Source of the DNA: Natronospira bacteriovora
Lineage (GTDB): Bacteria; Pseudomonadota; Gammaproteobacteria; Natronospirales; Natronospiraceae
Assembly: GCF_030848495.1 (NCBI RefSeq)
Contig: NZ_JAVDDT010000006.1
Coordinates: forward strand, 1 to 64,000
Reading direction: 5' to 3'
Length of the DNA stretch: 64,000 nucleotides
Part shown: positions 3,272-61,255 of the stretch, piece after piece
Layout of the letters: every line of letters starts with the position of its first letter
How positions within the stretch are numbered: the first letter of the stretch is position 1
The notes under the pieces: model-generated
Seen by the model: only the letters and a program-made list of their open reading frames with translations
Database searches by the model: none
What the model was told of the DNA's origin: nothing
Position numbers and translations under genes: made by a program

Positions 3272-4327
3272 ATGAATGGCTCGATGGCCGCTGTCAGCCT
3301 GGCAGCAATCCTTCTCAGCGCCCTGGGCTGCGGACTGTGGCGACCTCTGGCCAGACGCCTCGGATTCGTGGACGAGCCCAATCATCGCTCCCTGCACGAG
3401 CGACCCATGGTGCGTTCCGGGGGCCTGCCCATGGCCCTGGCCCTGCTGTTGGTACTGCTGCCCGCCTTCACCTTCCAGGCCATGACCCTGCCCTGGCCGT
3501 TGCTGCTGGCCCTGATGCTCGCCGCCGGCCTGACCCTGGTCTCGGCACTGGACGATCGCATTCCCCTGCCGGTTCTGCCCCGGCTGGGCAGCCACCTGCT
3601 GGCCTGTGTCCTGTTCGTGGCCCTGGGGCCGGAATTGCCGGCCTGGCTGGACGCCTGGCCACTCCCCGCCCTGCTGCCGGTCGGCCTGCTGGCGGTGCTG
3701 GCGCTGGCCTGGCTGATCAATCTCTACAACTTCATGGACGGCTCCGACGGCCTGGCCGGGGGGCAGGGCGTGATCGGTTTTGCCGCCCTGGGCGGCCTGG
3801 CGCTCATGGCCGATGCCCCCGAAACCGCCCTGGTCGCCTTCGCCATCAGCGGCTGCTGCCTCGGCTTTCTGTTCTGGAATGCCCCGCCCGCCCGGCTCTT
3901 TCTCGGCGATGCCGGCGCCATTCCCCTGGGTTTCCTGGCCGGCGCCCTGAGCCTGCAGCTGTGGCTGAGCCACGCGGTTCCGCCGTGGCTGACGCTGCTG
4001 CCCTTCGCCCCTTTCTGGGCGGATGCCAGCATCACCCTGCTTCGGCGCCTGTGGCGGGGAGAACGAATAATGCAGGCCCACCGGGAGCACTACTACCAGC
4101 GGCTGGTTCAGTCGGGATGGGGACACGGGAAGACGGCCCTGCTGGGCTGGGGCCTGATGCTGTTTGCCGCTCTGGCCGCCCTGGCCGGCCAGTATCTGGA
4201 CCATTACCTGGGCCAACAGCCGGGCCAGCCGGCCCAGGTCCTGCTGGGACAGGCCGCCCTGGTGACCCTGGTGCTTCTCAGTCTGCTGCTGACCGCTTTC
4301 TGGATCGCCCGACGCGCAGGCGATTGA
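3272..4327 (+). CDS. Polyprenyl-phosphate sugar-1-phosphate transferase (WecA/WbpL/MraY family)
   Basis: 351-aa polytopic membrane enzyme of GT family 4 in the MraY/WecA superfamily. Diagnostic motifs: VDEPNHRSLHERPMVRSGG near residues 30-48 (cytosolic loop 1), SALDDR near 90-95 and NLYNFMDGSDGLAGGQGV near 150-167 (Mg-binding aspartates), and LFLGDAGAIPLGF near 210-222; HREHYYQRL near 270 matches the family's HxxHxYQRL element. It loads the first sugar phosphate onto undecaprenyl phosphate, starting O-antigen or capsule synthesis. The 3' end overlaps the convergent ligase gene by 50 bases. The initiating sugar (GlcNAc, FucNAc, QuiNAc) is not resolved. Confidence 0.88.
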   Translation: MNGSMAAVSLAAILLSALGCGLWRPLARRLGFVDEPNHRSLHERPMVRSGGLPMALALLLVLLPAFTFQAMTLPWPLLLALMLAAGLTLVSALDDRIPLPVLPRLGSHLLACVLFVALGPELPAWLDAWPLPALLPVGLLAVLALAWLINLYNFMDGSDGLAGGQGVIGFAALGGLALMADAPETALVAFAISGCCLGFLFWNAPPARLFLGDAGAIPLGFLAGALSLQLWLSHAVPPWLTLLPFAPFWADASITLLRRLWRGERIMQAHREHYYQRLVQSGWGHGKTALLGWGLMLFAALAALAGQYLDHYLGQQPGQPAQVLLGQAALVTLVLLSLLLTAFWIARRAGD

Positions 4328-9250: not shown

Positions 9251-9367
9251 GAGTTCTGAGTTCTGAGTTCTGAGTTCTGAGTTCTGAGTTCTGAGTTCTG
9301 AGTTCTGAGTTCTGAGTTCTGAGTGCTGAGTGCTGAGTGCTGAGTGCTGAGTGCTGAGTGCTGAGTG
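9251..9367 (+). repeat. Heptamer array, left arm of element E3
   Basis: About 16.7 tandem units: first TGAGTTC-type units, then a block of TGAGTGC units, so the array has two homogeneous sub-blocks. It faces the inverted array at 9680-9760. Read on the plus strand it has TGA in each frame; read on the minus strand it is open, which is what extends the miaB frame upstream. Confidence 0.95.
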
Positions 9368-9679: not shown

Positions 9680-9760
9680 CACTCAGCACTCAGCACTCAG
9701 CACTCAGCACTCAGCACTCAGCACTCAGCACTCAGCACTCAGAACTCAGCACTCAGAACT
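9680..9760 (-). repeat. Heptamer array, right arm of element E3
   Basis: About 11.5 units of CACTCAG/AACTCAG, the inverse of the left array. The last units are mixed GAACTCA and GCACTCA. It ends about 80 bases before the YdcF-like start. Confidence 0.95.
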
Positions 9761-12102: not shown

Positions 12103-12109
12103 TGATTGG

Positions 12110-12523
12110 TGCTGAGTGCTGAGTGCTGAGTGCTGAGTGCTGAGTGCTGAGTGCTGAGTGCTGAGTGGGTGCCGGTCGGAGGGGCTGGCGGTTCTCGGAG
12201 GGACCGGGCTTCGAGGGGCTGGTGAGGCGTAAGGCGTAAGGCGTGAGGGGAAAGGCCGAAGCCTTCGGCTTCCGCGCTTTGCGCGTATCAGGCCGGCCTG
12301 CGGCCGGCCGTTGGGCGCCACAGGCGCCCGGATTGCCGCCTCACGCCTTACCCCTTACGCCTCACGCTCGAAGCCGCAACACCCCAAGCCACCCCGACCC
12401 CCCGCTAACGCCCCTCCGATTCACACCCGGTGCCAACCGATAGCCCGATCCCTCCGATCAACCCTGCCCCCTCCGACCAGCACCCACTCAGCACTCAGCA
12501 CTCAGAACTCAGCACTCAGAACT
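12110..12523. repeat. Composite inverted heptamer element E4 (most complete copy)
   Basis: Full nested structure: TGAGTGC array (12110-12167), left arm with GTGCCGGTCGGAGGGG, inner GGCGTAA/GGCGTGA array (12223-12248), hairpin row (12254-12331), inverted inner array (12340-12368), arm with CTCGAAGCCGCAACACC, CCCCTCCGACCAGCACCC pairing with the left arm, and inverted outer array (12484-12523). Both arms pair over most of about 200 bases. It fills the marR/yggX gap. No gene is visible in it; open frames crossing it are repeat translation. Confidence 0.9.
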
Positions 12524-18221: not shown

Positions 18222-18293
18222 GGTGAAGGCTTCCTTGGCCCGGGGGTTGGAAGCATCCATTCTAGCGTTTGGAGGCGATGGGGTGTGAGGGGG

Positions 18294-18570
18294 AGTTCTG
18301 AGTTCTGAGTTCTGAGTTCTGAGTTCTGAGTTCTGAGTTCTGAGTGGGGGAGTGGGGGTTGTGGGCGTGAGTGTAGTGGTGATCGGGGTTTTGGGAACGA
18401 GTGAGGCGTAAGGCGTGAGGGAAGGGCCGAAGCCTTTGGCTTCCGCGCTTTGCGCGTGTCAGGCCGGCCTGCGGCCGGCCGTTGGGCTCCACAGGCGCCC
18501 GGTTTTTACCTCACGCCTTACGCCTTACGCCTCACTCGTTACTCCTCACGCCTTACGCCTCACTCGCACC
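18294..18570. repeat. Composite inverted heptamer element E5
   Basis: Fills the 369-base gap between asmA and the tRNA. TGAGTTC array (18294-18345), GTGGGGGTTGTGGGCGTGAG arm, GGCGTAA/GGCGTGA units (18401-18420), hairpin row (18425-18502), then inverted CCTTACG/CCTCACT arrays (18508-18570) in two blocks separated by TCGTTACTC. There is no right TGAGTGC-type array; the element ends about 20 bases from the tRNA 3' end. Confidence 0.85.
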
Positions 18571-18704: not shown

Positions 18705-18772
18705 GAGTTCTGAGTTCTGAGTTCTGAGTTCTGAGTTCTGAGTTCTGAGTGCTGAGTGCTGAGTGCTGAGTG
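18705..18772 (+). repeat. Heptamer array upstream of S23 gene 1
   Basis: About 9.7 units, TGAGTTC first and TGAGTGC last, the same two-block order as at 9251. Faces the inverted array at 19190-19221 across the S23 gene. Confidence 0.95.
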
Positions 18773-26576: not shown

Positions 26577-27239
26577 TCAGGGCATCAATTTGTCCGCGAA
26601 GACAAACTCGTAACCAGAAGCCTTCATCCATTTCACATACGTTCTAAAGCGGTCGATACAATCATCTTCCCAATGGTTGCCCGGATGAATCTGAACAATG
26701 AACGGGTGGCGGCGCCGGATGAAGGGACGGCTGAGCTTCATTGCCCTGTCCAGACCGAATTTTCGATCGGTATCAGGCACATCACAGGTGATATTGAGAT
26801 AACTGGGCAGGGACTTTATATCCGGATGCCAGGGAATATCATACGTACCGGAGATGCCCGGAAACTTCTTCAGGGCGTCAATCGTATTGGCATCATAGAG
26901 ATTGAACGGCGCCCCAAACCATTTAGGCCTGACACCAATCACCTTCCGGCAGGCTTTCTGGCAGGCCTTGATCGCCTTCACCTGATCCTCAACGGAGGGC
27001 CCCAGAAACTCGGCACTGTCTTCCTCTCGCCAATGTCTATCCCCATGATTCCACACTTCCACATTCGCCATATTCAGGCGATTCCGCACAGATCCCGAAA
27101 TGCCTTTTTCGATAAGGTTCCGTGCTATGACCCCGACAGCGACCGGCACGTCCTCTTCCGCGCAAGCATCCAGGAAGGGCAGCCATTTCTTGGCGTTGTT
27201 GAAGCGAAAATCATCGGCTTTGATATGGACCTTACTCAT
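26577..27239 (-). CDS. Polysaccharide deacetylase-like protein
   Basis: 220 aa. KADDF near residue 8 and NHGDRH near 67 resemble the metal-binding Asp-Asp and His-x3-His motifs of NodB-type deacetylases, and the C-terminal PFIVQIHPGNHWEDD resembles the closing 'xHPxxW' strand. That fold would remove N-acetyl groups from a glycan or intermediate. The motifs are not textbook and the assignment is tentative. ATG 27239 overlaps the sulfotransferase stop by 8 nt, so the two are coupled. Confidence 0.55.
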   Translation of the reverse strand: MSKVHIKADDFRFNNAKKWLPFLDACAEEDVPVAVGVIARNLIEKGISGSVRNRLNMANVEVWNHGDRHWREEDSAEFLGPSVEDQVKAIKACQKACRKVIGVRPKWFGAPFNLYDANTIDALKKFPGISGTYDIPWHPDIKSLPSYLNITCDVPDTDRKFGLDRAMKLSRPFIRRRHPFIVQIHPGNHWEDDCIDRFRTYVKWMKASGYEFVFADKLMP

Positions 27240-27960
27240 GGGACAAGGCCTCCTGGTAGCGCTTCCACCAGCGACTGGCATCAATTCCAAGATGACGCTC
27301 CAGGCAATCGATGTCGACCTTCAGTTCCCTGGCGAAACGCCGATCATCGTCCCTGGAAAAGGAAAGGGAATCCGCCCCTGCATCCTTTCTTCTGGGGTTG
27401 GCATGTACCTCTTCAATTTCCAGGCGCCCCTTGTCCAGATCAAGAAAGTCACACACACGCTCAATGAATGCGGGTTGATCATTGATAAACTCTTCGAAAA
27501 TACCGAGAAAGACCCGCGACTGACCAAATAGCTGTATATACGGGGCTATCTGCGTGAAATAGCGGCTGTAGCTGAGCATATTCCCGAGCTTTCCGGACCC
27601 CCGCCAATCATCTACCGTTATATTCTCCTTGCGGGCGATAGCATGGGCAACGTTTGACTCCAGCCTCTCTACCGGATCACGCATCATGTAGATGATTCGG
27701 GAGTCCGGGTTGAAGTCGAACAGTGTCTGCGGGATATGCTTGAAACCCGGGTACTTTGAATATTGGGTGGTTCCGTCCAGGCAGACCCGCGTATCAGGGC
27801 CGATTTCGAACAGATCGGCGTAGGGCTTGCGGTTATGCGGCTCCAGGAAGTAGTCGAGCTCTTTCTTCTTGGGCGTCGCTACGTGAGCATGCTTGGCAAG
27901 CGCTTTGTAAAGGGTGTTGGTGCCACATTTCATCGCACCAATCAGAAAAACGTTTCGCAT
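27232..27960 (-). CDS. PAPS-dependent sulfotransferase
   Basis: 242 aa. The 5'-phosphosulfate loop is FLIGAMKCGTNTLYKAL (residues about 5-21) and the 3'-phosphate site is IYMMRDPVERLESNVAHAI (about 90-108), the two defining PAPS-binding motifs of carbohydrate sulfotransferases. LYKALAKHAHVATPKKKELDYF matches the following substrate-side segment. Likely cytoplasmic, sulfating a sugar of the locus product. Pairs with the deacetylase-like gene, which suggests N-deacetylation followed by N-sulfation as one option. Confidence 0.85.
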   Translation of the reverse strand: MRNVFLIGAMKCGTNTLYKALAKHAHVATPKKKELDYFLEPHNRKPYADLFEIGPDTRVCLDGTTQYSKYPGFKHIPQTLFDFNPDSRIIYMMRDPVERLESNVAHAIARKENITVDDWRGSGKLGNMLSYSRYFTQIAPYIQLFGQSRVFLGIFEEFINDQPAFIERVCDFLDLDKGRLEIEEVHANPRRKDAGADSLSFSRDDDRRFARELKVDIDCLERHLGIDASRWWKRYQEALSHE

Positions 27961-31679: not shown

Positions 31680-33314
31680 ATGCAATCATTGCTCACAAAA
31701 CTCTTTCCGTCTAATGGCAAAAAAGTTCCGGCCCCGATGAACACTGAGTTCTGGCGGGCTAGATCAACGCTCGGCAGAAAAGAGATCAAAGCCCTTAATG
31801 AGTTAAACAACTCATTCACCGGGGTTACAGACGAAGCCGAGGCATTCACTCGCAATCGAGCGGCGATCGAAGCCATCGAGTTTCTGACCTCTGTCGTCTC
31901 GCATACGAGTAACACCAAAGAACTCAAACAGGCGATAGACTGGAAGATGAAACTGCTCTATCGTAGTCGTCGCTGGAAGGAGATCACAGACGAACTTGAT
32001 CTCACCTACAAGCACCACCCTCACCTCCTCGATTCGAATTCAGTTTTCTACATCGCACGCGCCTTCTGGGAACTCGGCCAGTTTCGAAAAGCAGAGAGGT
32101 TTTTTCAACGCGCCGAGATCCCATCAGATGGTCATAAGCAGCGAATTTATGAGCGGTTCCGCCATGCTTGGTGGGTATCGAAGTCAGGGGTGGATTCTGC
32201 TGAGCTGCGTGACCCTGAGCGAATTGAATGGCATACGCTGAAGAAAACCGCTCTTGAATGGTATGAGCGGCATGACTTGGTTTTGGATGAGAGCGAGGTC
32301 GAACAGCTCCTCAAGCATTCGGTGAAAACGATTGAAGCGGCATACCGGTTCCACAAAACACGGCTACGCTCACATGACTTCCCAACAACCGATCATGTAG
32401 ATGCCAGCCGCCTCATATTTGTCTCTGGCTTCGGCTGGTCCGGATCGGGTGCCGTCACCGCCTTCCTGGAAGATCACGACGAAGTGGCTCGAGTTTCCGA
32501 TAAGGAGCTGGTCTGGACTCAGGGACGAACCAAGATACCGATGACCTCACTCGCCCAGATTTGGCCGGATGGTATATTTTCTGCCCCGCGCTTTGCAGAT
32601 TTCATACAAACCGGACTTCTCGGTCTCCTCGACAGCAATAACACCAAGGGAAAAAGTGAACGTGTCTATCCTGTGTCACTACTTGGTGAATGTAGCGCAC
32701 GAGGGATCGAAAGTGCCGCACTGGTCGAAATGATTAGCTCGTCACTCAACACCATGTCCCAGCAGAATCATCTAGGGGGTATTCTGACTTGTTTATCTCG
32801 ATTGGTGACTGATTTGTTGACTTGGCACCTCCATGGCAGGGAGCTTGGTCTTCTCGACAACGCCATAATGACACCGAAGATACATGTGCTAAATCTTTTT
32901 CCAGGTGCGAAATCAATTGTTGTCAAAAGGAATCTTCCAGATCAGTACGCTGCTAGACGATTGGAATCGAGAAGGAGAGAGACGCCCAAGGTATTTGAGA
33001 AACAGATTTGGAATACGGTCAAGCGGTTCAATGACCGCGGGCGTCAGATTGCAGATCGCTCGCGAATTCTGCCCATTTCTTTCGAGCATTTCCTGGAAGA
33101 CGAAAAGCTTAGACGCTACATTCTCGAATGGATCGATACCAAAGATACTTCTCCACCGAGGCCGAAACGATTCAACCCATCTGTATCGATCAAGAACGTG
33201 GGCATCGCCAGAGAGTTCTCAGGAAAAGAGTGGTACAAACGTTTCTCGGCCATGGATGAAGAACTGCCCTACAACGAGGTCTTCCGATTCGATTCAAGCA
33301 TAACACGTTCATGA
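31680..33314 (+). CDS. Sulfotransferase-like protein with N-terminal helical region
   Basis: 544 aa. Residues 1-230 are helical, with a TPR-like stretch (YKHHPHLLDSNSVFYIARAFWELGQFRKAERFFQRA region). About residue 240 begins LIFVSGFGWSGSGAVTAFLEDHDEV, a plausible 5'-phosphosulfate loop (GxxxSGS), and later KSIVVKRNLPDQYAARRLES could be a 3'-phosphate site. The overall match is weaker than its neighbours, so it may sulfate a different acceptor or have lost activity. It is 26 bases after the sulfotransferase at 30787 and overlaps the convergent membrane-protein gene by 6 bases. Confidence 0.55.
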   Translation: MQSLLTKLFPSNGKKVPAPMNTEFWRARSTLGRKEIKALNELNNSFTGVTDEAEAFTRNRAAIEAIEFLTSVVSHTSNTKELKQAIDWKMKLLYRSRRWKEITDELDLTYKHHPHLLDSNSVFYIARAFWELGQFRKAERFFQRAEIPSDGHKQRIYERFRHAWWVSKSGVDSAELRDPERIEWHTLKKTALEWYERHDLVLDESEVEQLLKHSVKTIEAAYRFHKTRLRSHDFPTTDHVDASRLIFVSGFGWSGSGAVTAFLEDHDEVARVSDKELVWTQGRTKIPMTSLAQIWPDGIFSAPRFADFIQTGLLGLLDSNNTKGKSERVYPVSLLGECSARGIESAALVEMISSSLNTMSQQNHLGGILTCLSRLVTDLLTWHLHGRELGLLDNAIMTPKIHVLNLFPGAKSIVVKRNLPDQYAARRLESRRRETPKVFEKQIWNTVKRFNDRGRQIADRSRILPISFEHFLEDEKLRRYILEWIDTKDTSPPRPKRFNPSVSIKNVGIAREFSGKEWYKRFSAMDEELPYNEVFRFDSSITRS

Positions 33315-35057
33315 TACATCTTTGAGACACGGGTTCTTGATGATTCGCGCAGCTGCAGCCATGGCGGCGCGGTACTTCCCCTGACCAATCATCTTCTCCA
33401 TGATCGAAGAATCATTGGCTAAATGAATGTGGTCCGCGGTAAACCAGTCCGGGATATCCGATCGCCTTCCCCGCATCCGTTCGATCAAGCCTTCAATGTC
33501 CGCACGCTTGGCGGTTCTCGGGACGGGGACGCCCACTGGCTCCAAGCTCCATTTTGTCCAGCTCATTACGTAATGCCCCCCATCGGATCGCTGGACGACA
33601 GCCCCCGGCTTGAGATCGGGGTTGAATATCTGCATGGGCAACTTCGACAGGAGCGTGCGGATTACGTCCAGATCCGCTATCAATGTCTTATAAATCTGCT
33701 CGTCTTCACTGGTATCAACAGCGACACTGATTCGCTGGACATAGTCATCATTGAGGCGCTGATGGAGCAACCGTTTGGAGGTGCGGAACGCCTCGGACAG
33801 CGCCTGCGGAGGCGATACCGACCAGATAGCCTCCCGCAGCTTTAGGTTGGCACTCCGGAAATCTTTTTGCTTCAACGGCTCACCGTTACCGTAATCACAG
33901 ATCTGGGCCTGAAACGGCGGCATCTCGAAACGACTCAAAACAGGCGGGGAGTTCAGAGCTTCACGAGGCACATGCTTGAACAGAAAATCCTCGTTTTCCA
34001 GCTTGTGGGATTCTTTCTCAGGAAACACCTGCATCTGCAGCTGGCCGGGAAACTCGCCTGGCACATCCTCGACCAAAATCCGGAAAGTGTTGACCCTGGG
34101 GATGGAAGAATCCTCCCATTGCACGTCCGGCTCATGTAGCTCCGGCTCGATACGCTGCAACTCGTGGCTGACTCTGTCCTGCCGTTGCGATTTGTCGAAC
34201 AACTCCCGCAGGCTTCGGCTCAGCTTCGCCTCCTGTTTCTCTAGCTGTTGATCCCTGAAGACCAGCGCATTGACCGTGAGCCTCTCCTCATGCAGAGAAA
34301 TCGAATCTGAAACGGCACTCTGCAGGCTTGTCAGTGCTTGCCTTAGCAGCAAGAATGAAAGAAGAGAGAGAAGAATGTTGGGGCCATCTCCCACAAGATA
34401 AGGATACAGGATGACGGCGAAGCCCAGGAAGAACACCATCGCCGACAGAATCGTCAAATAGTTCTTCGAAAAATTAACGATATAGCCGGAAAGACCGCGT
34501 GGTCTTGAAGAATCAAGGAAGCGGAGAACAGCCGCAGTGAAGCCAAACTGAAGGGTTAGCAATGCGACAACCGCTGCAGCGACCCCCGGGATCAGTACAC
34601 TGATCAGAGCCAGGAACAGCAGGCTAAAGCTTAGATTGGAGGCAACACCGCCAAATCGAGAGTAGTAATCTCGTGCGGCGTCTATATGTCGGCTAACGAC
34701 CGCTATCTCGTTCGCCTCCTGGAGTATGTCGATACTTCCTTTCTCGGACAGGCGCTTAACGGCGACCTCCAGCACGTGGGTCATGAGGTAGAAGACCACG
34801 GCCGCGATCGATAGGCCGATAATCCACTCCATCCGAAGGTCAGGATCGACAAAGAAGCGAAAATAGCGCGGCACACCCGGTGAGCCCGCCAGCAGAATCA
34901 CTTTCAGCGGAATAAAGAAGGCCAGAATGCTGCAAACCCGCGCCAGGCCATGAGCGCCTATCAGTGTCAGCGTTGTGGCCGGCCGGGCTTTGATGAATAC
35001 ACCCAGTACGTCCCCAAGCCATTTCAGAAACGCACGGACTGCTTCCAATAGCTTCAT
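33309..35057 (-). CDS. Multi-pass membrane protein with large cytosolic domain, unknown
   Basis: 582 aa. The first 280 residues contain about five to six membrane helices (LARVCSILAFFIPLKVILLAG; IIGLSIAAVVFYLMTHVLEVAV; SFSLLFLALISVLIPGVAAAVVALLTL region; FFLGFAVILYPYLV; LLSLLSFLLLRQAL) whose spacing and long intervening helix recall the transmembrane domain of type I ABC exporters. No Walker A or signature motif follows; instead there is a 300-residue soluble part with a coiled stretch (DQQLEKQEAKLSRSLRELFDK). ATG 35057 follows GGAG. Role unknown; export or regulation of the glycan is conceivable. Confidence 0.55.
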   Translation of the reverse strand: MKLLEAVRAFLKWLGDVLGVFIKARPATTLTLIGAHGLARVCSILAFFIPLKVILLAGSPGVPRYFRFFVDPDLRMEWIIGLSIAAVVFYLMTHVLEVAVKRLSEKGSIDILQEANEIAVVSRHIDAARDYYSRFGGVASNLSFSLLFLALISVLIPGVAAAVVALLTLQFGFTAAVLRFLDSSRPRGLSGYIVNFSKNYLTILSAMVFFLGFAVILYPYLVGDGPNILLSLLSFLLLRQALTSLQSAVSDSISLHEERLTVNALVFRDQQLEKQEAKLSRSLRELFDKSQRQDRVSHELQRIEPELHEPDVQWEDSSIPRVNTFRILVEDVPGEFPGQLQMQVFPEKESHKLENEDFLFKHVPREALNSPPVLSRFEMPPFQAQICDYGNGEPLKQKDFRSANLKLREAIWSVSPPQALSEAFRTSKRLLHQRLNDDYVQRISVAVDTSEDEQIYKTLIADLDVIRTLLSKLPMQIFNPDLKPGAVVQRSDGGHYVMSWTKWSLEPVGVPVPRTAKRADIEGLIERMRGRRSDIPDWFTADHIHLANDSSIMEKMIGQGKYRAAMAAAARIIKNPCLKDVS

Positions 35058-35145
35058 TACCGGGCTCTCCGGAGGAGCGTTACATCGAAACGGCCGCCAT
35101 CGCGGGCTGCACCCGCCATGGCGGCCAACCACTCATTCCGTCATT

Positions 35146-44781: not shown

Positions 44782-45753
44782 TCAGCTCCGAATGTTCCCC
44801 CGGTTTTCGAGGAACCACTGGTAGGCATCCCGCAGGCCTTCTTCCAGGCCAATCGATGCCTCCCAGCCCAGGGCCCTCAGGCGGGAGACATCCATCAGCT
44901 TCCGCGGTGTACCGTCGGGCTTGGTGGTATCCCAGGTGAGCCGGCCCTTGAAACCAGTCACCTTCGCCACGGTCTCGGCCAGCTCGCGAATCGTACAGTC
45001 CACGCCGGTGCCCACATTGATATGCGAAAGCATAGGGTCAGTGTGTGCTCGATAGGTTTCACCATCGAGTTCCATCACATGCACGCTGGCGGCAGCCATG
45101 TCGTCAACATGCAGGAATTCGCGCATGGGTTTGCCACTACCCCAGACCCCCACCTCGTCCGCATTGCTCTCCGCCGCCTCATGGAAGCGACGAATCAATG
45201 CGGGGATGACATGACTGTTTTCCGGATGGAAATTATCATTGGGCCCATACAGGTTCGTCGGCATGACACTGCGATAGTCCCGGCCATGCTGGCGATTATA
45301 GCTTTCACACAACTTGATGCCGGCGATCTTGGCTATCGCGTACGGCTCGTTGGTGGGCTCCAATGTCCCCGTCAGCAGCGCATCCTCACGCATGGGCTGG
45401 TCCGCATGCTTTGGATAAATGCATGACGACCCCAGAAAGAGCAACCTATCCACACCAGACTCATGCGCCGCGTGGATGATATTCGCCTCTATCATCAGAT
45501 TCTGATAAATGAAGTCCGCCGGGTAGGTGTTATTCGCATGAATACCGCCAACTCTGGCGGCCGCGAGATAGACTTCATCGATTTCATTGGACTCTAAAAA
45601 CGCCCGCACTACCCTCTGATCCAGCAAGTCCAGCTCATCTCTGGACCGAGTCAAGATATTCCCATAACCACGCCGCTCGAGCTCACGCACGATCGCCGAG
45701 CCAACCATGCCTCGGTGTCCGGCAACAAATATCCGCTTGTCACTGTCCACCAT
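44782..45753 (-). CDS. fcl: GDP-L-fucose synthase (GDP-4-keto-6-deoxymannose epimerase/reductase)
   Basis: 323 aa. [22 protein letters not shown] is the NADP loop with the GHxGMVGSA signature of Fcl/WcaG; the catalytic region is [21 protein letters not shown] (YxxxK) after [29 protein letters not shown] is the family's third block. Converts the Gmd product to GDP-L-fucose. The start overlaps the gmd stop by one base (TAATG). Confidence 0.95.
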
Positions 45754-46886
45754 TACCGCTCAACCTTGATCGGCAGGTCATAGCCGTTTTCTTTCAGGAA
45801 GGCGTGGCGCTTTGCTTCATCCAAATCGTGTTGCACCATTTCCGCACACATCTCGTGAACCGAAATTTCCGGCACCCAACCCAGCTTCTCCTTCGCTTTC
45901 GTCGGATCGCCCAGCAGAGTCTCGACTTCCGCTGGACGGAAATACCGGGGATCGACGGAGACGATGACATCGCCTTCCTTGACCCCAGGCGCGTCATTTC
46001 CTGTAACGCTCTCCACAATTCCTTTCTCATCAACACCCGAGCCTTCAAACCTCAGGTTGATGCCAATTTCTGACGCTGACATCCGAATAAAGTCGCGCAC
46101 CGAACACTGCTCTCCGGTGGCAATCACGAAATCCTCGGGCTCGTCCTGCTGAAGCATAAGCCACTGCATGCGCACATAATCCTTCGCATGACCCCAGTCC
46201 CTTAGCGCATCCAGATTGCCCATGTAAAGACAATCCTCCAAACCTTGCGCAATATTGGCCAGACCGCGAGTAATCTTTCGGGTCACAAATGTTTCGCCAC
46301 GCCGTGGAGATTCGTGATTGAATAGAATCCCATTACAGGCATACATCCCGTATGCTTCCCGGTAATTTACCGTGATCCAGTATGCGTACAGCTTCGCAGC
46401 TGCGTAAGGACTACGCGGATAGAAAGGCGTAGTCTCTCGCTGTGGCGATTCTTGCACAAGCCCATACAACTCAGAAGTCGATGCCTGGTAGAATCGGGTC
46501 TTTTCCTCAAGCCCCAGAAGCCTGATTGCTTCCAACATACGCAACGCCCCAAGAGCATCCACATCGGCTGTGTATTCGGGTGATTCGAAGCTTACTGCAA
46601 CATGGCTTTGCGCGCCAAGATTATAAATCTCATCTGGCTGCACCTGCTTAATTATTCGTGTAAGATTCGAAGAATCAGTTAAATCGCCATAGTGCAAGCT
46701 AAACCTTGGATCCACCTCATGCGGGTCTTGATATATATGATCCACACGATCTGTGTTAAATAATGATGCACGGCGCTTTATGCCGTGAACCTCATAACCT
46801 TTTGACAGAAGCCACTCTGCCAAATAAGACCCATCCTGACCAGTAACACCTGAGATTAACGCCACCTTCTTCACTTGCATCTCCAT
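45753..46886 (-). CDS. gmd: GDP-mannose 4,6-dehydratase
   Basis: 377 aa. [25 protein letters not shown] (NADP loop, TGxxGQDGSYL), [49 protein letters not shown] with catalytic Thr/Glu/Tyr, and [16 protein letters not shown]. First step from GDP-mannose toward fucose. Closely coupled to fcl. ATG 46886 (an internal ATG 46880 is an alternative). The upstream 278 bases (46887-47164) are AT-rich with no gene or clear promoter that I can support. Confidence 0.95.
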
Positions 46887-50596: not shown

Positions 50597-53023
50597 CTAA
50601 AAATCCTTCCCACTCATTTCTATTGACTTAAAATTCGGAGACAACCTCAATGCCAACTCAGAAAACGAACTCCAAGTGCTTCCGAGAAGCCTATTACAAC
50701 GGCTGAGAAGAATTGCATCTGCCATTGCGAACTGAATCTGCCTGCGAGAGCGATCAAAGACGTCCCTGCGCAAAAACGCCACGCGACCTCCATACGCCGA
50801 TTTAAATTCGGAGTATATCTCCGGTCGATCAGCCGCCAGAAAGATTGACGGAGCCCCTCCAATACCAGATATGTGCTTCATGAATCGCTCATAGTGGCTC
50901 ATCCCCCGCCAATAGTGGAGTTGCGAATGACCCTCTTTAGTCCAGTTCATTGGCGAGTCATAGCTATTATGATCAAGACCCTCCCCCGCTTCCATTCGCA
51001 CATGCACGCCTATTTCATTGGGCTGTTTCACACTATCGATCAATCCTTGCACTTCAGGCGTCGGGATCAATGATCGGAGAAACTCATTCTCTGCCCCCCA
51101 TGAAGTTTCGGAGCAATTAAGCACGTATGCTGATCTAACGTAAATAGATCCGTCATAATCAAGATCAATGGGTTCATCCTTCTCTGCACCTGGCTCAATT
51201 TCCATATAATTATGAACTGCAATACCCATCCTTGGCGCCTGAGTGACAAAGCTCTCCTCTATCACAGGGCCTGAATACTCGGTTATGTCGTGAATGCGGC
51301 AATCACAATGATGATCCGGCTGCCAGATTACGACTAATTCTCTATCGGTATTCTTAGCAATCGCCGCAGCCGAAGCAATTGCTCGCAATCTATTTCCAAG
51401 CCCATGCTGCGCGTCAATGTACATCTTGGGCTTTGCGATCAGTAACTCAGGACCATTACGATTAAGCACATGCTGATCCACATTAGACAGCCGCTGTGCT
51501 ATTTCCGCAGTCAATTTAACTATCAAGTTACCGCCACTTACTACACGCGAGGCAGCTGACTCCGCTTCCAGGTCTAATGTTTCTATATCATTAATTAGCG
51601 ACTTAACCCAAGGATGAAGGACATGATCGACATGCGCGCTCAGTTTTGAGGCCATTTTCGTTGTTGCGAGCCCGATTACTGGTAAACGGGAGGCTTTAAC
51701 GTATGCTCGAACCTGACGAAGCGCAGACTGAAATATTTCTGCATCGAGATCGAGACAATCCTCAGTAAACTCAATAAATAAGTATTGCGCAGAAAATCGA
51801 AACTCTCTCGGCACACCTGACAGCGCAAGCTCCACATCAAGCTTATTTAAACCATCCAGCTTTTTCGATTCCAATAGGACTCGCAATCCTCCCTTAGATA
51901 GATCGAATACTCTTGGGCCGAGCCTCCACGACAAGAGCTCCCTTGCGGCATAGATCTCTGCATCCGATCGAATATGATCTGGGACATAATGTATCGGATC
52001 TGACCCACGATGGGCTTTAATAAAATCGCGCCTATAACTTTCGATTCTAAAGGGTAGCCACCGCTTATTTTGAGTCCATAACGGCATGACATTGGCGGTA
52101 AATCGGTTTGCACGGATCTTAAACTTCGGGTCATCCAGGAGCTCCTCCCATGCGCACCGCTGTGCCGCGGGACTCACACCGAGACGCTGAACATCATCAT
52201 GAGGCAAATGATAAATTGTCTCCGGATCCACGCACTCTCTGGTTAAACCGATACCCTCCAGCCGGGAGTAAATATCATCATCATCCCATCCGTAGGTTGT
52301 TATGTACTCGTTAAAACCCTTGACGGCTATCAGATCTTTCTTAAACGCATAGAAAAACCCATTTATATACGCTTGCCCTTCATTGGCCACTCGCCAGTCG
52401 CCGGCAATAAATCGCCCCATCTTTAGTTTGTTTTTTTGAAAGAAATCATCAGATATCACGATATCCGCATCAACTTTCAAGACCTTCTCGAAACGCGCCA
52501 CCCTAAAACCCACGTTAAAGGCATAACTCAATATCCATCGTGACTCTCCGTCTATTCGAACCACGCGAATCCTTGGATCATCAAAACCCGCAGCATCAAC
52601 ACTCTCTTTCACGGCATGGTCAGATGACCAATCTACGACTACGATCTCAGATATCTCTGCCCTCGCCAGCCATGACGGCAAGGCTTTTAGTAAGTTCTCA
52701 TTTCGATTCTTGCAACATGTGACGAGACTTATACCAGGCAGGCCTGGCCGGACTAAATCGTCTAGAAAATCAGGTGAGTGATCCAGGCAATCGCTCGGCG
52801 CATAGTCCAACTCACAACTGATCCCGTATGCTTCTGAAAACCGCTTGAGCATGACGAGACGTTTTACTGCCATCTCTGGTGAATCGGCACTTAATCCGGA
52901 AACGATGTCCTGAAGCAAGACGCCCGCATCAGCTTTCTTTCCACCTTTAGCCAGCTGCCTCGCATACTCCAGTTTCGACCAAAAGCTTTCAACTGGTCCT
53001 TGTTTGAGAATCCCTGTACTCAT
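50597..53023 (-). CDS. GT2 glycosyltransferase fused to a fucosyltransferase-like domain
   Basis: 808 aa. N-terminal helices, then a GT2 domain at about residues 95-330: ISLVTCCKNRNENLLKALPSWL, ISEIVVVDWSSDHAVKESV, KVLKVDADIVISDDFF (DxD), YINGFFYAFKKDLIAVKGFNEY, YGWDDDDIYSRL, all as in chondroitin-polymerase-type GalNAc/GlcA transferases. From about residue 530 a second domain: MYIDAQHGLGNRLRAIASAAAIA, EIGVHVRMEAGEG, and CNRLLGSTWSSFSELALRLS, the layout of GT-B fucosyltransferases (NodZ/GT11-like HVR motif and Ser/Thr loop). Next to GDP-fucose genes, fucosylation is an attractive reading. The middle 200 residues are unassigned. Confidence 0.72.
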   Translation of the reverse strand: MSTGILKQGPVESFWSKLEYARQLAKGGKKADAGVLLQDIVSGLSADSPEMAVKRLVMLKRFSEAYGISCELDYAPSDCLDHSPDFLDDLVRPGLPGISLVTCCKNRNENLLKALPSWLARAEISEIVVVDWSSDHAVKESVDAAGFDDPRIRVVRIDGESRWILSYAFNVGFRVARFEKVLKVDADIVISDDFFQKNKLKMGRFIAGDWRVANEGQAYINGFFYAFKKDLIAVKGFNEYITTYGWDDDDIYSRLEGIGLTRECVDPETIYHLPHDDVQRLGVSPAAQRCAWEELLDDPKFKIRANRFTANVMPLWTQNKRWLPFRIESYRRDFIKAHRGSDPIHYVPDHIRSDAEIYAARELLSWRLGPRVFDLSKGGLRVLLESKKLDGLNKLDVELALSGVPREFRFSAQYLFIEFTEDCLDLDAEIFQSALRQVRAYVKASRLPVIGLATTKMASKLSAHVDHVLHPWVKSLINDIETLDLEAESAASRVVSGGNLIVKLTAEIAQRLSNVDQHVLNRNGPELLIAKPKMYIDAQHGLGNRLRAIASAAAIAKNTDRELVVIWQPDHHCDCRIHDITEYSGPVIEESFVTQAPRMGIAVHNYMEIEPGAEKDEPIDLDYDGSIYVRSAYVLNCSETSWGAENEFLRSLIPTPEVQGLIDSVKQPNEIGVHVRMEAGEGLDHNSYDSPMNWTKEGHSQLHYWRGMSHYERFMKHISGIGGAPSIFLAADRPEIYSEFKSAYGGRVAFLRRDVFDRSRRQIQFAMADAILLSRCNRLLGSTWSSFSELALRLSPNFKSIEMSGKDF

Positions 53024-53096: not shown

Positions 53097-54029
53097 CTAT
53101 CCGTAACCCAAGCGATGCCGAAGCAATTGGAAATTCTTTGAATTCGTCATGGAAGAACAAATCTCCTCAGGAATTTCCTGCCGAGGCCGAGCACAGATCT
53201 CTCGACCGCTTCTTCCGCTATCCCCCGACAAATCATAGACATTAAACACGTCCATAAAGCAGTCGTCATAAGGCATTTCCAGCTCATCAGCCATTTGCCT
53301 CATCACCATCTCAGGCCATTGGACAAACTCTTCATATCGAACAAGCTTGGCATGCTTGTAATCCTCCAAGAACTTCATATACCTAGCCGCATACTCGTCG
53401 ACCGACCCAGGCTCGAAGTGGAGCCATTCATTCTTAACCAGTGAAACATAAGAATCGACAGGATCTCTGGTGGTAACAATTGAAATTGTCCGGCGCTCTC
53501 TCGCCACAATATCTGCGATCGTGGGTCGAGCCTTCACCTCCGAACCGGTGCAGTAGTGGCTGTGCGTATGATCTCGGATGATAAGACGGAGCCCGCGGTT
53601 AATTGCAGAGCGCGCGGTAACTCCTAGGCTTGCCATGAATATATCCTGCAAGAGATCCGCCGGAGCCTCTCTTGTGCTATTCCTAATCAGGTTAATAAAA
53701 TCAGTGGGAGAAAAACGACCAGGAGGCTTGTACAGCTCGCTCAAAGGATCCACTTCACTTAGCAGCCATGCATTGGGCAACGAAGCCAAGCATTTCGATA
53801 TGAGGGTTCCTCCAGTACAAGCAAAATGATGAACCATCCGTATTGGCTCAGGATGCTCACTTTCCACCTCTTGGCGCCATGCTTCACATTCCTCCAGCAG
53901 GCTCGGCAATGATTCCGATTCGGCCTGACGACGTGCCGCATCCGTACCATACTCGGCCTCAACCAACGCAAGTGATTCCTCGATTGCGTCGGAAACGGTT
54001 TTGGGTATTTGGTTCAGCTCTCGAGTCAT
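53097..54029 (-). CDS. PAPS-dependent sulfotransferase
   Basis: 310 aa. MVHHFACTGGTLISKCLASLPN (residues about 64-85) is the 5'-PSB loop with the C-T-G-G-T form, and TISIVTTRDPVDSYVSLVKNEW (about 180-201) the 3'-PB site. This is the same class as sulfotransferases acting on polysaccharides in other bacteria. AT-rich. It lies 31 bases downstream of the coiled-coil gene at 54061 and 73 bases upstream of the GT2-fucosyltransferase-like gene. Confidence 0.82.
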   Translation of the reverse strand: MTRELNQIPKTVSDAIEESLALVEAEYGTDAARRQAESESLPSLLEECEAWRQEVESEHPEPIRMVHHFACTGGTLISKCLASLPNAWLLSEVDPLSELYKPPGRFSPTDFINLIRNSTREAPADLLQDIFMASLGVTARSAINRGLRLIIRDHTHSHYCTGSEVKARPTIADIVARERRTISIVTTRDPVDSYVSLVKNEWLHFEPGSVDEYAARYMKFLEDYKHAKLVRYEEFVQWPEMVMRQMADELEMPYDDCFMDVFNVYDLSGDSGRSGREICARPRQEIPEEICSSMTNSKNFQLLRHRLGYG

Positions 54030-54060: not shown

Positions 54061-55878
54061 TCACTCGGACTCACCTGACAGGGCTCTAAGCAGCTCCTGG
54101 GCCGCATCGCCATCTTTTTCCCGACTTGCACTGTCCGCACCCAACTGACGCAGGCTCTGTGCGGCAACGGACAATCGATGGTTAAGCTTACCGAGTAACT
54201 CGTCCTGCTGTTCTTTCCGTCTCACAAGGGCTGCGTAGCGTTCCTGGAGGTCCTTGAGGTCCCGGTCACGCTGAGTCTGCAGTCTAATTGCGACTGACAA
54301 ATCACTACGGGAATCTCTCAACGCTTCCTCGATACGCGCCTTCTCTTCTTCCAACTTAAGCCTGGCTTCACGCTCCGTGGCTAGCTGCTCTCGCTCCTTG
54401 GCTGCTTCCTCTCTGGCCTGCGTGACCTGGCTCTCCAGCTCGGCTCGGGTTTCCTGCTCCTTCTTGAGTGCCGCAGCCTGCTCCTCCGCCTTCTGTTTGG
54501 ACTGTTGCTGCTGCTCCGCGAGCTTCTCCTTGAGCGAATCACGTTCCTTGGCTAGCTGCTCTCGCTCCTTGGCTGCTTCCTCTCTGGCCTGCTTGAGCTG
54601 GCTCTCCAGCTCAGTTCGGGTTTCCTGCTCCTTCTTGAGTGCCGCAGCCTGCTCCTCCGCCTTCTGTTTGGACTCTTGCTGCTGCTCCGCGAGCTTCTCC
54701 TTGAGCAAATCACGTTCCTTGGCTAGCTGCTCTCGCTCCTTGGCTGCTTCCTCTCTGGCCTGCTTGAGCTGGCTCTCCAGCTCAGTTCGGGTTTCCTGCT
54801 CCTTCTTGAGTGCCGCAGCCTGCTCCTCCGCCTTCTGTTCGGACTCTTGCTGCTGCTCCGCGAGCTTCTCCTTGAGCGAATCACGTTCCTTGGCTAGCTG
54901 CTCTCGCTCCTTGGCTGCTTCCTCTCTGGCCTGCTTGAGCTGGCTCTCCAGCTCGGCTCGGGTTTCCTGCTCCTTTTTGAGCGCCGCAGCCTGCTCCCCC
55001 GCCTTCTGTTCGGACTGTTGCTGCTGCTCCGCGAGCTTCTCCTTGAGCGAATCACGCTCCGTGGCTAGCTGCTCTCGCTCCTTGGCCGCTTCCTCTCTGG
55101 CCTGATTGAGCTGATTTTCCAGCTTGGCTCGGGCTTCCCGCTCTTTGCTTAGTGCCTCGGCCTGGTGCTCTGTGGTGTTCTCCGCTTTTTGGACCTTCTC
55201 TTGGAGCTTGATCAGTTCCGCATTGAGACGTTCTATTTCCAGCCTTTCGATATTCTGCTTTAGGTGCCAGGTGGGACGATCAGGGTCGGCATCATCCACT
55301 TCGCCCTCGAGCTGATAGCCCTGTTCTTCCAGGAAGGCGAGCACTTCCTGGGCGGGGGCTACGCCCTCGTAGAGGGATTCCTGGCCGCAGCGGAGCACGA
55401 TATTAGCAATGCGCGAGAGGGTGTTTTCTTGCTGCAGAGAGCGGAGGATGGCCTCTTCTTCGCCCGGGGTATCGACGATCAGGCAGATTGACTGGGCATT
55501 GGCGAGCTGGGCTTCATCCAGCAATTCGACCGGTGTGACTGCCTCGACGGCCACTTCGCGGACCAGCCGCAGCCCGGGGAAGAGGTCTTTCAGGCCAGTG
55601 GCCGGGCGAAGACTGCTGACTTCCGGCAGGTTGTAGGTATGCAGAACACGCTCGCCGGGTTCGTCGGAGACGGCATAGGGCAATACAGTGATGTTTGCGT
55701 TGTCGCTGGTTCGGCGTTCTAGTGTTTTGGCCAGGGCCGGATTTGCTTCCACCAGTACAACCGAGGTGCTGGCTGGCAGGGCCTGATAGGCCGCAAGCTC
55801 CTGACAGCGGCCAGCGCCGAGGTGGACGATGGCATCGGCATTGTTGAGAGCAATCTGTAGTTGCGGGGTCACGCTCAT
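54061..55878 (-). CDS. FkbM-like methyltransferase domain with long repetitive coiled coil
   Basis: 605 aa. Residues 1 to about 200 look like an FkbM-type methyltransferase: AIVHLGAGRCQELAAYQALP, VVLVEANPALAKTL, ITVLPYAVSDEPGERVLHTYN, though motif I is HLGAGRCQE and may be weak. From about 205 to 590 the protein is an unbroken, highly charged coiled coil. Residues about 256-499 are a 57-residue unit repeated about 4.3 times (QAREEAAKEREQL / SLKEKLAEQQQ / EEQAAALKKEQETR). The layout recalls WbdD, in which a catalytic terminator sits on a coiled-coil ruler that sets O-antigen length. This role is inferred. Confidence 0.72.
   Translation of the reverse strand: MSVTPQLQIALNNADAIVHLGAGRCQELAAYQALPASTSVVLVEANPALAKTLERRTSDNANITVLPYAVSDEPGERVLHTYNLPEVSSLRPATGLKDLFPGLRLVREVAVEAVTPVELLDEAQLANAQSICLIVDTPGEEEAILRSLQQENTLSRIANIVLRCGQESLYEGVAPAQEVLAFLEEQGYQLEGEVDDADPDRPTWHLKQNIERLEIERLNAELIKLQEKVQKAENTTEHQAEALSKEREARAKLENQLNQAREEAAKEREQLATERDSLKEKLAEQQQQSEQKAGEQAAALKKEQETRAELESQLKQAREEAAKEREQLAKERDSLKEKLAEQQQESEQKAEEQAAALKKEQETRTELESQLKQAREEAAKEREQLAKERDLLKEKLAEQQQESKQKAEEQAAALKKEQETRTELESQLKQAREEAAKEREQLAKERDSLKEKLAEQQQQSKQKAEEQAAALKKEQETRAELESQVTQAREEAAKEREQLATEREARLKLEEEKARIEEALRDSRSDLSVAIRLQTQRDRDLKDLQERYAALVRRKEQQDELLGKLNHRLSVAAQSLRQLGADSASREKDGDAAQELLRALSGESE
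54381..55110 (-). repeat. 171-bp in-frame tandem repeat in coiled-coil gene
   Basis: The sequence CTAGCTGCTCTCGCTCCTTG recurs at 54381, 54552, 54723, 54894 and 55065, an exact 171-base period, giving about 4.3 copies of 57 codons. Copies differ by few bases (for example Ser/Leu at one codon, KQK/EQK at another), so they are recent duplicates. Copy changes keep the reading frame and would lengthen or shorten the coil by 57 residues. Confidence 0.95.
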
Positions 55879-55879
55879 C

Positions 55880-57121
55880 TCAGACTGCTCCCGCCTTGCG
55901 TGGCTTTCTCATGGTGAGCCGGCGGATGGCCCGCAGCGGCTTGGTGACCTTCCAGGATAGGGAGTTCTGAATCGCAGTATTTTTCTCCCGAATGCGCGTG
56001 AGTTCTCTATCCAGGCGTTTTTTCTGGGCCAGCATGCCCTGGTATTTCTCTTCCTTTTTGTCGATGGCCCAGTTCTTGTTCTTGATGGTCTGGTCGCGGG
56101 CGGCGAGCTTTTCTTCCTGGGCCTTGCGCTTACCCACTTCATCCTGGAGTTCCAGGTAGTAGCTTTCGAGTTCTTCCTGGACCTGGTGTAGCTGCAGCAA
56201 CAGGAGTTCGTTCTCTTCCTTCAGTTCTTTTTCTCGGATACTGACCGCATCCTGACCCTGCTTGACGGACTCCAGCTCAGCCTTTAGGCGATCACATTCT
56301 GTCTCGGCTTCCTGGCGGCTTTTCGCTTCCTTTTGAAGATCCAGGTAGTACTTTTCCAGTTCTTCTTGAAGCTGGTGCGTTTGAAGCAGGATAAGTTCGT
56401 TCTCTTCTTTGAGCTCACTGCTCTGCGTGGTCGTCTGGTCCTTCAATTTCTCGAACTGGGTTTCGGAAGCGGTCAGTTCTTCGTAGATGGCCTGGCAGTC
56501 CAGTTGCGGGGCCTGGCTTTCCTCCGCTAGCGGGATGGAGCTGGCCTCCAGCTCGGCGAGCAGGGGCTGGATGTCTTCGGCCTGGGCAACCATCTGGGCG
56601 GCGAGCAGGCGATAGACGGACTGGAGCTGTCCGTCATTGCTCGCGGGCGGCTGGATGTCGGCTTCACTCAGACCGAGATGCTCCTGACAGGCGTGGGCGA
56701 AGGCTTCGGGGGCCTGGAGGGCCGTGTCGGCGTTGATCAGGCGGATGCTACGGCGGTTTCGGCGGTAGGCCTGCAGGAAGGCCTCCACGGCCTGGCGCCA
56801 GGCATCGAGTTCTTCCGTGGGGTTCTTGCCGGCCTGCATGGCGCGGGCCAGGGCGGTTTCGGGCCGGGTGTGCAGCAGCAGGGCTCTGGCGTCTTTTGTC
56901 TTGGCCAGTTGTTGGGCCAGATCCATGTCTGTGATGGCTTCGCCCACTGGCAGGAGCGAGACGGTGTCGGCACTGGATGAGGCCGGGCCGATGCGCCCGG
57001 CCGGGTTCGCCCGCCAGCGGGCCACGGCATTGCCGTCCAGCGCCGTGGCACCGAGCTGTTCCAGCATCGGGATCACGGCCTGCCAATTACTTCCCGGGGT
57101 TGCCCCAAGTATCAGATACAT
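55880..57121 (-). CDS. Degenerate sulfotransferase-like domain fused to coiled coil
   Basis: 413 aa. The N-terminal 165 residues follow the plan of the short sulfotransferases found in glycan loci: YLILGATPGSNWQAVIPMLEQLGATAL at the loop position (where 'GxxRSGTS' is expected), ALLLHTRPETALARAMQAG at the 3'-site position, and RRSIRLINADTALQAPEAF. The Lys/Arg and Ser/Thr of the P-loop are missing, so it is probably non-catalytic. Residues about 215-390 are coiled coil with two copies of KEENEL(I/L)LLQ-HQ(L/V)QEELE-YYL. NSLSWKVTKPLRAIRRL near the end is a common glycan-protein tail. One base from the start of the ruler-like gene, so a likely partner. Confidence 0.6.
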   Translation of the reverse strand: MYLILGATPGSNWQAVIPMLEQLGATALDGNAVARWRANPAGRIGPASSSADTVSLLPVGEAITDMDLAQQLAKTKDARALLLHTRPETALARAMQAGKNPTEELDAWRQAVEAFLQAYRRNRRSIRLINADTALQAPEAFAHACQEHLGLSEADIQPPASNDGQLQSVYRLLAAQMVAQAEDIQPLLAELEASSIPLAEESQAPQLDCQAIYEELTASETQFEKLKDQTTTQSSELKEENELILLQTHQLQEELEKYYLDLQKEAKSRQEAETECDRLKAELESVKQGQDAVSIREKELKEENELLLLQLHQVQEELESYYLELQDEVGKRKAQEEKLAARDQTIKNKNWAIDKKEEKYQGMLAQKKRLDRELTRIREKNTAIQNSLSWKVTKPLRAIRRLTMRKPRKAGAV

Positions 57122-57147: not shown

Positions 57148-58578
57148 TCAGGCCCGTCCGTAGGTGTCTTCGAATCGAACGATGTCGTCCTCGCCCAGGT
57201 AGGCGCCGGACTGGACTTCGATGAACTCCAGCGGGATCGCTCCCGGGTTTTCAATCCGATGTTTCTCGCCCAGCGGAATGTAGGTGGACTGGTTCTCGGT
57301 GAGGATGAAGCTCTCCTCGCCGCGAGTCACCCTGGCCGTTCCGCTGACGATAATCCAATGTTCGGCACGGTGGTGGTGCATCTGCAGCGACAGTCGCCCG
57401 CCGGGTTTCACGGTTATGCGCTTGACCTGGTAGCGCTCGCCATCGTCCACGGTCTCGTAGGTGCCCCAGGGACGGTGGACTTTGGCATGGGTGTCCGCCT
57501 CATCCCGGCCCTGCTCATTGAGCGCGCCGAGCAGGTGTTTCACATTCTGCGCCTCGGAGACCGGCATCACCAGCACCGCGTCACCGGTTTCGATCACGGC
57601 CACATCCTTGAGGCCGACGGCCGAAACCAGGCGTTTTCTCGAGACAAGCAGGCTATTGTCGCAGTCTACGGCCAGGGTGTCACCGTCGCAGACATTGCCC
57701 CGCTCGTCACAGGCCTGGCCGGCCTGGCCGCGCTCCAGGTAGGACTGCCAGGAGCCGATGTCGCTCCACTGGATGTTGACCGGGATGACCCGGGCCGAGG
57801 CGGTCTTTTCCATTATGGCGTAGTCGATGGAGTCGGCGCGGGCCTCGGCAAAGGCGGCCGCGTCGGGGCGGACAAAGATACCATCGGTCTTGCGACCGTC
57901 GAATGACCGTTTCACGGCGGCCATGATGTCCGGGGCGTGGGCCTGGAGCTCATCAACGATCTTTTGCGCTGGGAACAGAAACATGCCGCTGTTCCAGAGG
58001 AATCGGCCGCTCTCGAGGTATTTTTCCGCCGTCGCCCGATCCGGTTTTTCCACGAACTGCTTCATTGGCCGGACCGGGGCCGAGCCGTCGCCGTCCAGCT
58101 CGATGTAGCCGTAGCCCGTCTCCGGGCGGGCGGGCTGGATGCCAAAGGCGACCAGGTCGTCCAGCGTCAGGTGTTCCATGGCGGCCGACAGGGCCTCGGC
58201 CAGGGGGCCGTCGTCCTCAATCCAGTGGTCGGCCGGGAGCACCAGCATGCGGGCGTCGGGATCGGTCTCGGCGATCTCCAGGGCCGCCAGGGCGATGGCA
58301 GCGGCGGTGTTCTTGGGTTCGGGCTCCAGGATCACGCTGGCGCTGTCGTGGCCGGCGTCCTTGAGCGCGTCCGCAATCAGGAAGCGGTGCTCCTCGTTGC
58401 CCACCACCACGGGGTGGCTGTTGCACAGGCCGTTGAGGCGCTGAAGAGTGGCGCCCATCATGGGCTCGCTGCCGAACAGGGTGTGAAACTGTTTCGGAAA
58501 GGCCTTTCGGGACAGGGGCCACAGGCGGGAGCCGACGCCCCCGGCGAGGATCACCTTGACGATGTTCTGGTCGGTCAT
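57148..58578 (-). CDS. manC: Mannose-1-phosphate guanylyltransferase / mannose-6-phosphate isomerase ManC
   Basis: 476 aa bifunctional enzyme. Nucleotidyltransferase domain: ILAGGVGSRLWPLSRKAFPKQF (residues about 9-30, in part GGVGSRLWPLS), VVVGNEEHRFLI, VEKPDRATAEKYL. C-terminal type II PMI cupin: HRPWGTYETVDDGERYQVKRI, PGGRLSLQMHHHRAEHWIIVSG, and IPLGEKHRIENPG. Converts Fru-6-P to Man-6-P and Man-1-P to GDP-mannose, feeding gmd. ATG 58578. Confidence 0.94.
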   Translation of the reverse strand: MTDQNIVKVILAGGVGSRLWPLSRKAFPKQFHTLFGSEPMMGATLQRLNGLCNSHPVVVGNEEHRFLIADALKDAGHDSASVILEPEPKNTAAAIALAALEIAETDPDARMLVLPADHWIEDDGPLAEALSAAMEHLTLDDLVAFGIQPARPETGYGYIELDGDGSAPVRPMKQFVEKPDRATAEKYLESGRFLWNSGMFLFPAQKIVDELQAHAPDIMAAVKRSFDGRKTDGIFVRPDAAAFAEARADSIDYAIMEKTASARVIPVNIQWSDIGSWQSYLERGQAGQACDERGNVCDGDTLAVDCDNSLLVSRKRLVSAVGLKDVAVIETGDAVLVMPVSEAQNVKHLLGALNEQGRDEADTHAKVHRPWGTYETVDDGERYQVKRITVKPGGRLSLQMHHHRAEHWIIVSGTARVTRGEESFILTENQSTYIPLGEKHRIENPGAIPLEFIEVQSGAYLGEDDIVRFEDTYGRA

Positions 58579-60985: not shown

Positions 60986-61147
60986 TCGTGACTCCCTCCG
61001 ACGTCCTGTCAGTGCTGTTTTTTGAGGTATTGGCCCTTCCCGACCAATTCCCTCTTATGTTTAATCACGCGCCGATCCCCCTTCCCCTTCGGCGCGTTGC
61101 GAGCGCAATTGAGTATAGGGGATGCGCGGTTGGGTGTGAAGGTGGAA

Positions 61148-61255
61148 GTGCTGGGTGCTGAGTGCTGAGTGCTGAGTGCTGAGTGCTGAGTGCTGAGTGC
61201 TGAGTGCTGAGTGGGTGCTGGTCGGAGGGGGCGGCGGTTCTCGAAGGGGCGGGGC
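61148..61255 (+). repeat. Heptamer array and left arm, element E8
   Basis: The 301-base gap between galU and the antitoxin holds this. About nine TGAGTGC units (first GGGTGCT) at 61148-61213, then the arm GGGTGCTGGTCGGAGGGGGCGG shared with E3 and E4. No inverse arm follows directly; the next arrays (61924-62035) lie beyond the NadS/toxin genes. Confidence 0.9.

Follow-up and report, generated by a model that had tools for sequence, protein, structure and literature searches.

WbdD-type termination has been described for ABC-transporter-dependent pathways (PMC11231755). The WbdD proteins of E. coli O9a and O8, which are encoded in glycan loci, have a long coil that bears a methyltransferase-fold head at one end; the O9a protein has a kinase, whereas that of O8 is a methyltransferase only (PMC3482155). 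Alteration of the WbdD coil leads to altered O-antigen length (PMC5082667). The Klebsiella O7 (ORF6-O7) and O12 (WbbB) terminators also join a terminal-modification module to a coil, in a flexible arrangement of modules (PMC11231755).

The window, i.e. the whole 64,000-nt stretch of DNA analysed here, encodes a 605-aa protein consisting of an FkbM-type head, a coiled coil and a conserved C-terminal helix. The original prediction regarded this protein as a WbdD-like chain-length ruler. The likeness holds for the class I head on a coil, the location in a glycan locus and the in-frame changes of coil units; however, it fails for the ABC exporter and for the kinase, which is missing from the window protein as it is from E. 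coli O8 WbdD. The window protein differs from WbdD further in that its head is FkbM-type with SAM motifs that vary across its family, no membrane helix is evident, the coil is built of expandable repeats, and the gene lies among sulfotransferase and fucose genes, in a genome that yielded no ABC glycan exporter. Likewise, the Klebsiella proteins ORF6-O7 and WbbB share the combination of a terminal-modification module and a coil, but their modules include GTs or kinases and their export is ABC-dependent; neither feature was found for the window protein. Taken as a whole, it looks like a spacer carrying an FkbM-type head, and WbdD identity is a candidate assignment.

Head, coil and tandem array of the window protein

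The protein and its parts are located as follows.

54061-55878, (-): FkbM-head/coiled-coil protein, 605 aa (ORF with ATG start; TIGR01444; family of 68)
55252..55878, (-): N-terminal class I methyltransferase-fold head, aa 1-209 (TIGR01444, AF2 model and VIA match)
54304..55251, (-): coiled coil, about aa 210-525, E/A/Q/K/L/R-rich, between two conserved ends
54368-55164, (-): 171-bp/57-aa tandem array of 4.7 copies (TRF, copy-by-copy comparison and shuffle test)
54142..54303, (-): conserved C-terminal helix motif, aa 526-579 (C-terminal profile)

The window head scores 48.7 bits against NCBIfam TIGR01444 (FkbM), above the curated cut-off of 37.7, and 34 of 45 family heads match the same profile at E 0.01. 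The AlphaFold2 (AF2) model of the head, built from the 45 family heads, has a class I methyltransferase fold (pLDDT 96, pTM 0.92) and a VIA Z of 15.3 to COMT 5k09. The methyltransferase-like N-domain joined to a coiled coil, as originally predicted, was thereby confirmed. The window head has no Pfam match and no PDB match by sequence, and solved structures of the FkbM family are absent from the sequence search and from the fold matches listed, which has no bearing on its identity. No kinase domain was detected by Pfam or NCBIfam, and the coil begins directly after the head. As regards the membrane-binding and polymerase-recruiting C-terminal region of WbdD-type terminators, neither a membrane-binding helix nor a basic amphipathic tail is evident in the window protein; a basic tail is present on the partner protein described below.

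The prediction also called for a SAM pocket. The class I fold was indeed recovered in the model, but the SAM motifs vary over the family. The glycine-rich motif takes the form H-x-G-A-G-x-x across the 68 family heads, with G21 conserved in 60, G23 in 49 and the third Gly in 23, and E44 is conserved in 54. In the window protein, motif I reads HLGAGRC, position 25 (usually the third Gly) being C. It starts with H rather than with the D/E of the FkbM family and lacks the third Gly. The window family differs from FkbM proteins also in a D-x-P-G-x-E variant, a family-specific DPDxP end, and the fusion of the head to a coil and a C-terminal helix motif. Judging from these motifs, SAM binding is plausible for most family members and doubtful for some. 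The head is probably a sugar-binding or sugar-methylating domain.

The tandem array (period 171, 94% matches, 0% indels, score 1375) is the sole TRF array in the ORF and the largest in the window. The 57-residue repeat with few base differences is thus real, and the predicted copy number of about 4.3 is close to the measured one. At the protein level, identity at lag 57 is 0.68 in the coil, whereas 1000 residue shuffles reached at most 0.23. Copies 2, 3 and 4 are identical at 165-169 of 171 nt, copies 3 and 4 differing by 2 nt, while the edge copies 1 and 5 match copy 2 at only 150/171 and 129/171 nt, respectively; the interior copies therefore look recently duplicated. Near-identical interior and diverged edge copies would be the usual picture of unequal recombination. 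Since the longest exact run common to adjacent copies is 132 nt, repeat collapse in short-read assembly is unlikely. The hydrophobic periodicity of the coil is strongest at 3.5, and the 57-aa unit may be parsed into five heptads and two hendecads, by our own assignment from Leu/Ala positions and with a permissive fit, which would keep the hydrophobic seam in register across the unit. An antisense ORF of 242 aa (54377-55105, (+)) is open across the array as a by-product of the repeat composition.

Whole-unit changes of coil length in the family

By tblastn, relatives with the same layout were found on plasmids of Gemmobacter, Salipiger, Leisingera, Sulfitobacter and Ensifer, and the head as a single-protein query gave no match against genome contigs. 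The adjoining sulfotransferase, used as search bait, retrieved 71 related loci, and the family then assembled comprises 68 proteins. In a survey of 369 gammaproteobacterial genomes, strong matches (E < 1e-70) occurred only in the window's genome (G000) and in G002, one of two same-genus relatives (G001 and G002), all remaining matches being far weaker (E 1e-19 or worse). No phage relatives were found. The literature yielded no paper that joins FkbM and a coiled coil with a glycosyltransferase or sulfotransferase, and the family is apparently undescribed.

All 68 proteins share the head and 65 share the C-terminal helix motif, while the coil between these conserved ends ranges from 19 to 652 residues (median 179). 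Four members (L102, L109, L092 and L126) have a near-absent coil of 19-37 residues, and a long spacer is therefore not essential. The G002 orthologue (L009, 9214-11247, (-)) has no tandem array, and its C-terminal motif is missing, replaced by an extra, weakly methyltransferase-like C-terminal domain.

Tandem arrays are present in 31 of the 68 members, with 15 different periods, every one of the 31 in frame; 24 periods are multiples of 7 residues (binomial p about 5e-15, an indicative value that ignores relatedness). A description of the non-heptad periods as 7a+11b was rejected, the fit being too permissive to serve as evidence. Close relatives differ by whole units. The orthologues of Leisingera sp. 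M527 and NJS204, both on complete plasmids, are 486 and 451 aa long, and their sole gap, of 105 nt, corresponds to one 35-aa unit and falls within the array; the genes are otherwise collinear, and in the neighbouring genes each sequence has at most one single-base gap. For Nioella MMSF_3534 and N. ostreopsis (draft assemblies, 93% identity), the difference is 294 + 147 nt, equal to three 49-aa units, with both gaps inside the array. A third pair about one unit apart, Sedimentitalea and F11138, was not used, as its gaps are not clean. Because the Leisingera and Nioella pairs differ by whole units, a constant repeat number is refuted for the family, and the predicted change of copy number without a frameshift is borne out among the relatives. 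The expandable coil is real and a family trait. At 57-76% head identity, coil lengths already differ widely (350 vs 78 and 37 vs 238 residues).

Gene module, export genes and possible functions

The genes of the window locus that bear on the glycan are listed below.

53097..54029, (-): sulfotransferase of the module (FACTGGTLISK...LLSEVDPLS), Sulfotransfer_3 just under cut-off, with 71 related loci
55880..57121, (-): partner, 413 aa, with a tentative degenerate P-loop/sulfotransferase-like head, a coil and a SLSWKVTKPLR tail; an upstream neighbour conserved at some of the loci
50597..53023, (-): two-domain protein with GT2 N-terminus and NodZ-like (fucosyltransferase-type) C-terminus (Pfam)
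44782..46886, (-): fcl (GDP-L-fucose synthase-like) and gmd (GDP-mannose dehydratase-like), ORFs named by sequence resemblance
57148..58578, (-): manC (mannose-1-P guanylyltransferase/isomerase), TIGR01479 at 637 bits
35146..36888, (-): ATP sulfurylase-APS kinase fusion, PAPS supply (Pfam)
27232..27960, (-): further sulfotransferase, Sulfotransfer_1 at 55.5 bits
30787..31653, (+): further sulfotransferase, Sulfotransfer_3 at 49.2 bits

A CitMHS/sodium-sulfate-type transporter is also encoded in the locus. Based on the sulfotransferase, PAPS-supply and GDP-fucose-type genes, the glycan is probably sulfated and fucose-containing. With its head, coil and C-terminal motif, and beside a LLSExDPLS sulfotransferase (best member, Sulfotransfer_3 E 5e-7), the window gene fits a module that occurs in dozens of marine and other bacteria. 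Wherever upstream sequence is present among the 71 loci, the sulfotransferase is almost always preceded immediately 5' by an ORF that encodes the family head, exceptions including Sphingobium SYK-6 and a distant Ponticaulis group. The surroundings of 66 module loci, out to about 7 kb, contain relatives of gmd (34), fcl (24), galE (23), GT10 (20), exostosin (15), manC (13), NodZ-like (10) and MptE/MAF (7) genes, and RTX calcium-binding proteins lie near several loci. In Gemmobacter fulvus (L025, 9592-11820) and Sulfitobacter D7 (L028, 8992-10827), proteins of 742 and 611 aa, respectively, each with a methyltransferase-like C-terminal region, replace the plain sulfotransferase after the FkbM-coil gene. 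The window also contains related 7-bp repeat arrays between genes (TRF; TGAGTGC, GAGTTCT and CACTCAG), at 1-55, 9251-9366, 9680-9760, 12109-12167, 18293-18345, 18705-18771 and 61147-61213.

At 29 of the 65 loci examined, a partner is encoded upstream that has a coil of its own and a S-x-S-W-x-x-T-x-P-x-R-like tail. Its head belongs to no Pfam family, and the partner model (pLDDT 73) gave weak sulfotransferase/kinase-like fold matches, none with E below 0.001; the identity of this head therefore stays a lead. The coil lengths of the partner and the FkbM-coil protein correlate weakly (Spearman 0.44, p 0.02, n 26, relatedness ignored).

In profile searches, no match to Wzt_C, Wzz, KpsC/S or Poly_export was found in G000, G001 or G002. 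In the window's genome, flippase profiles matched MurJ only, and no ABC glycan exporter, Wzx or Wza was detected. The ABC2 matches inspected in the three genomes are other transporters (DrrB/YadH-like, NatB-like and CcmB), C5:82753 lying outside the inspected set. The evidence for the absence of an exporter is strong but not final, because genome completeness is 97% and the window starts at the end of a contig. At 4278-7812 (-), two adjacent Wzy_C (O-antigen ligase/polymerase-like) paralogues lie beside a WecA-like enzyme; neither Wzx nor Wzz was detected in this genome. Another protein, of 607 aa (33309-35132, (-)), resembles the membrane half of an ABC exporter without the ATPase and has no Pfam match; it is a candidate unusual exporter in a genome where known ones were not found.

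As a WbdD-like terminator and ruler, the protein would cap the polymer with its head, the coil would set the modal chain length, and the repeat number would tune this length stepwise. This is unlikely in our judgement, even though the layout is that of WbdD, including the methyl-only form of O8, and coil length, to which O-antigen length responds in WbdD, really changes by units here. KpsC/S-type capsule genes in 16 of 21 relatives' genomes tested (a count that does not include the background rate of the lineages) and an ABC ATPase, sugar transporter and permease on the same plasmid as the module in Salipiger pPABY6 also speak for it; a comparison of coil length between genomes with and without KpsC/S was made by eye, the second group of only five being too few. 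However, no ABC glycan exporter, KpsC/S, Wza, Wzz or Wzx was detected in the window's genome, no KpsM-like or Wzx gene occurs within about 7 kb of the 66 module loci, the SAM motifs vary, and a C-terminal membrane helix is not evident. In another reading, a short sulfated or fucosylated glycan, and no long polymer, would be attached in the cytoplasm to a protein that is secreted or displayed at the surface, in agreement with the lack of a known polymer exporter in the window's genome, with the protein-glycosylation genes of MptE/MAF type at seven module loci and with the nearby RTX proteins. We consider it quite improbable, because the genome has no MptE-like match, the Wzy_C proteins and the WecA-like enzyme stand in the same window, and no acceptor protein was identified.

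Alternatively, the coil may be an oligomerisation linker only, whose length would carry no function and be subject to neutral drift, given that low-complexity heptad repeats are prone to recombination. Coil lengths that vary over 30-fold, widely even between similar heads, agree with such drift, as do the many members without an array and the persistence of near-absent coils. On the other hand, the ends and the register are kept, with all periods in frame and most of them heptad multiples, although any functional coil would keep register too; on balance, a mere linker is rather doubtful. We give about an even chance to the protein being a spacer or scaffold in the assembly of a sulfated, probably fucose-containing surface glycan. 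As such, the FkbM-type head, with any catalytic activity it may have, would be kept apart from the conserved C-terminal helix by an oligomeric coiled coil, and this helix would probably be the docking site for assembly proteins, e.g. the partner coil protein and the adjoining sulfotransferase. The coil would gain or lose whole in-register units by recombination between repeats, and the reach of the head would consequently change stepwise, by about 8.5 nm for each 57-aa unit if a residue spans 0.1485 nm, with a possible consequence for the glycan. In favour of this reading are the observed architecture with its conserved ends and variable middle, the in-frame and mostly heptad-multiple arrays, the whole-unit differences between close relatives, the position of the gene beside the sulfotransferase, the GDP-fucose, GT10, NodZ-like, exostosin and sulfation genes in the vicinity and the weak correlation of the coil lengths of partner and FkbM-coil protein. 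Against a spacer or scaffold stand the absence of the partner at many loci, the weak correlation of the two coil lengths, the members almost without a coil, and the G002 orthologue without array or C-terminal motif.

A function in chain length is a good, testable hypothesis, albeit one to which we assign a low probability. The same low probability applies to the broader proposal that these proteins are a widespread, undescribed family of length-evolvable coiled-coil rulers in sulfated or fucosylated glycan assembly without the classical ABC-exporter context, in which recombination between heptad-register repeats would set glycan length or the range of sulfation stepwise. If coil length is functional, the natural series from the shortest to the longest coil, with constant ends, makes the ruler idea testable without engineering, and expansion of the coil would amount to a frameshift-free retuning of a bacterial surface glycan. 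Should length prove neutral, the family would still supply a name and a gene context for many marine-bacterial proteins that are now annotated as hypothetical.
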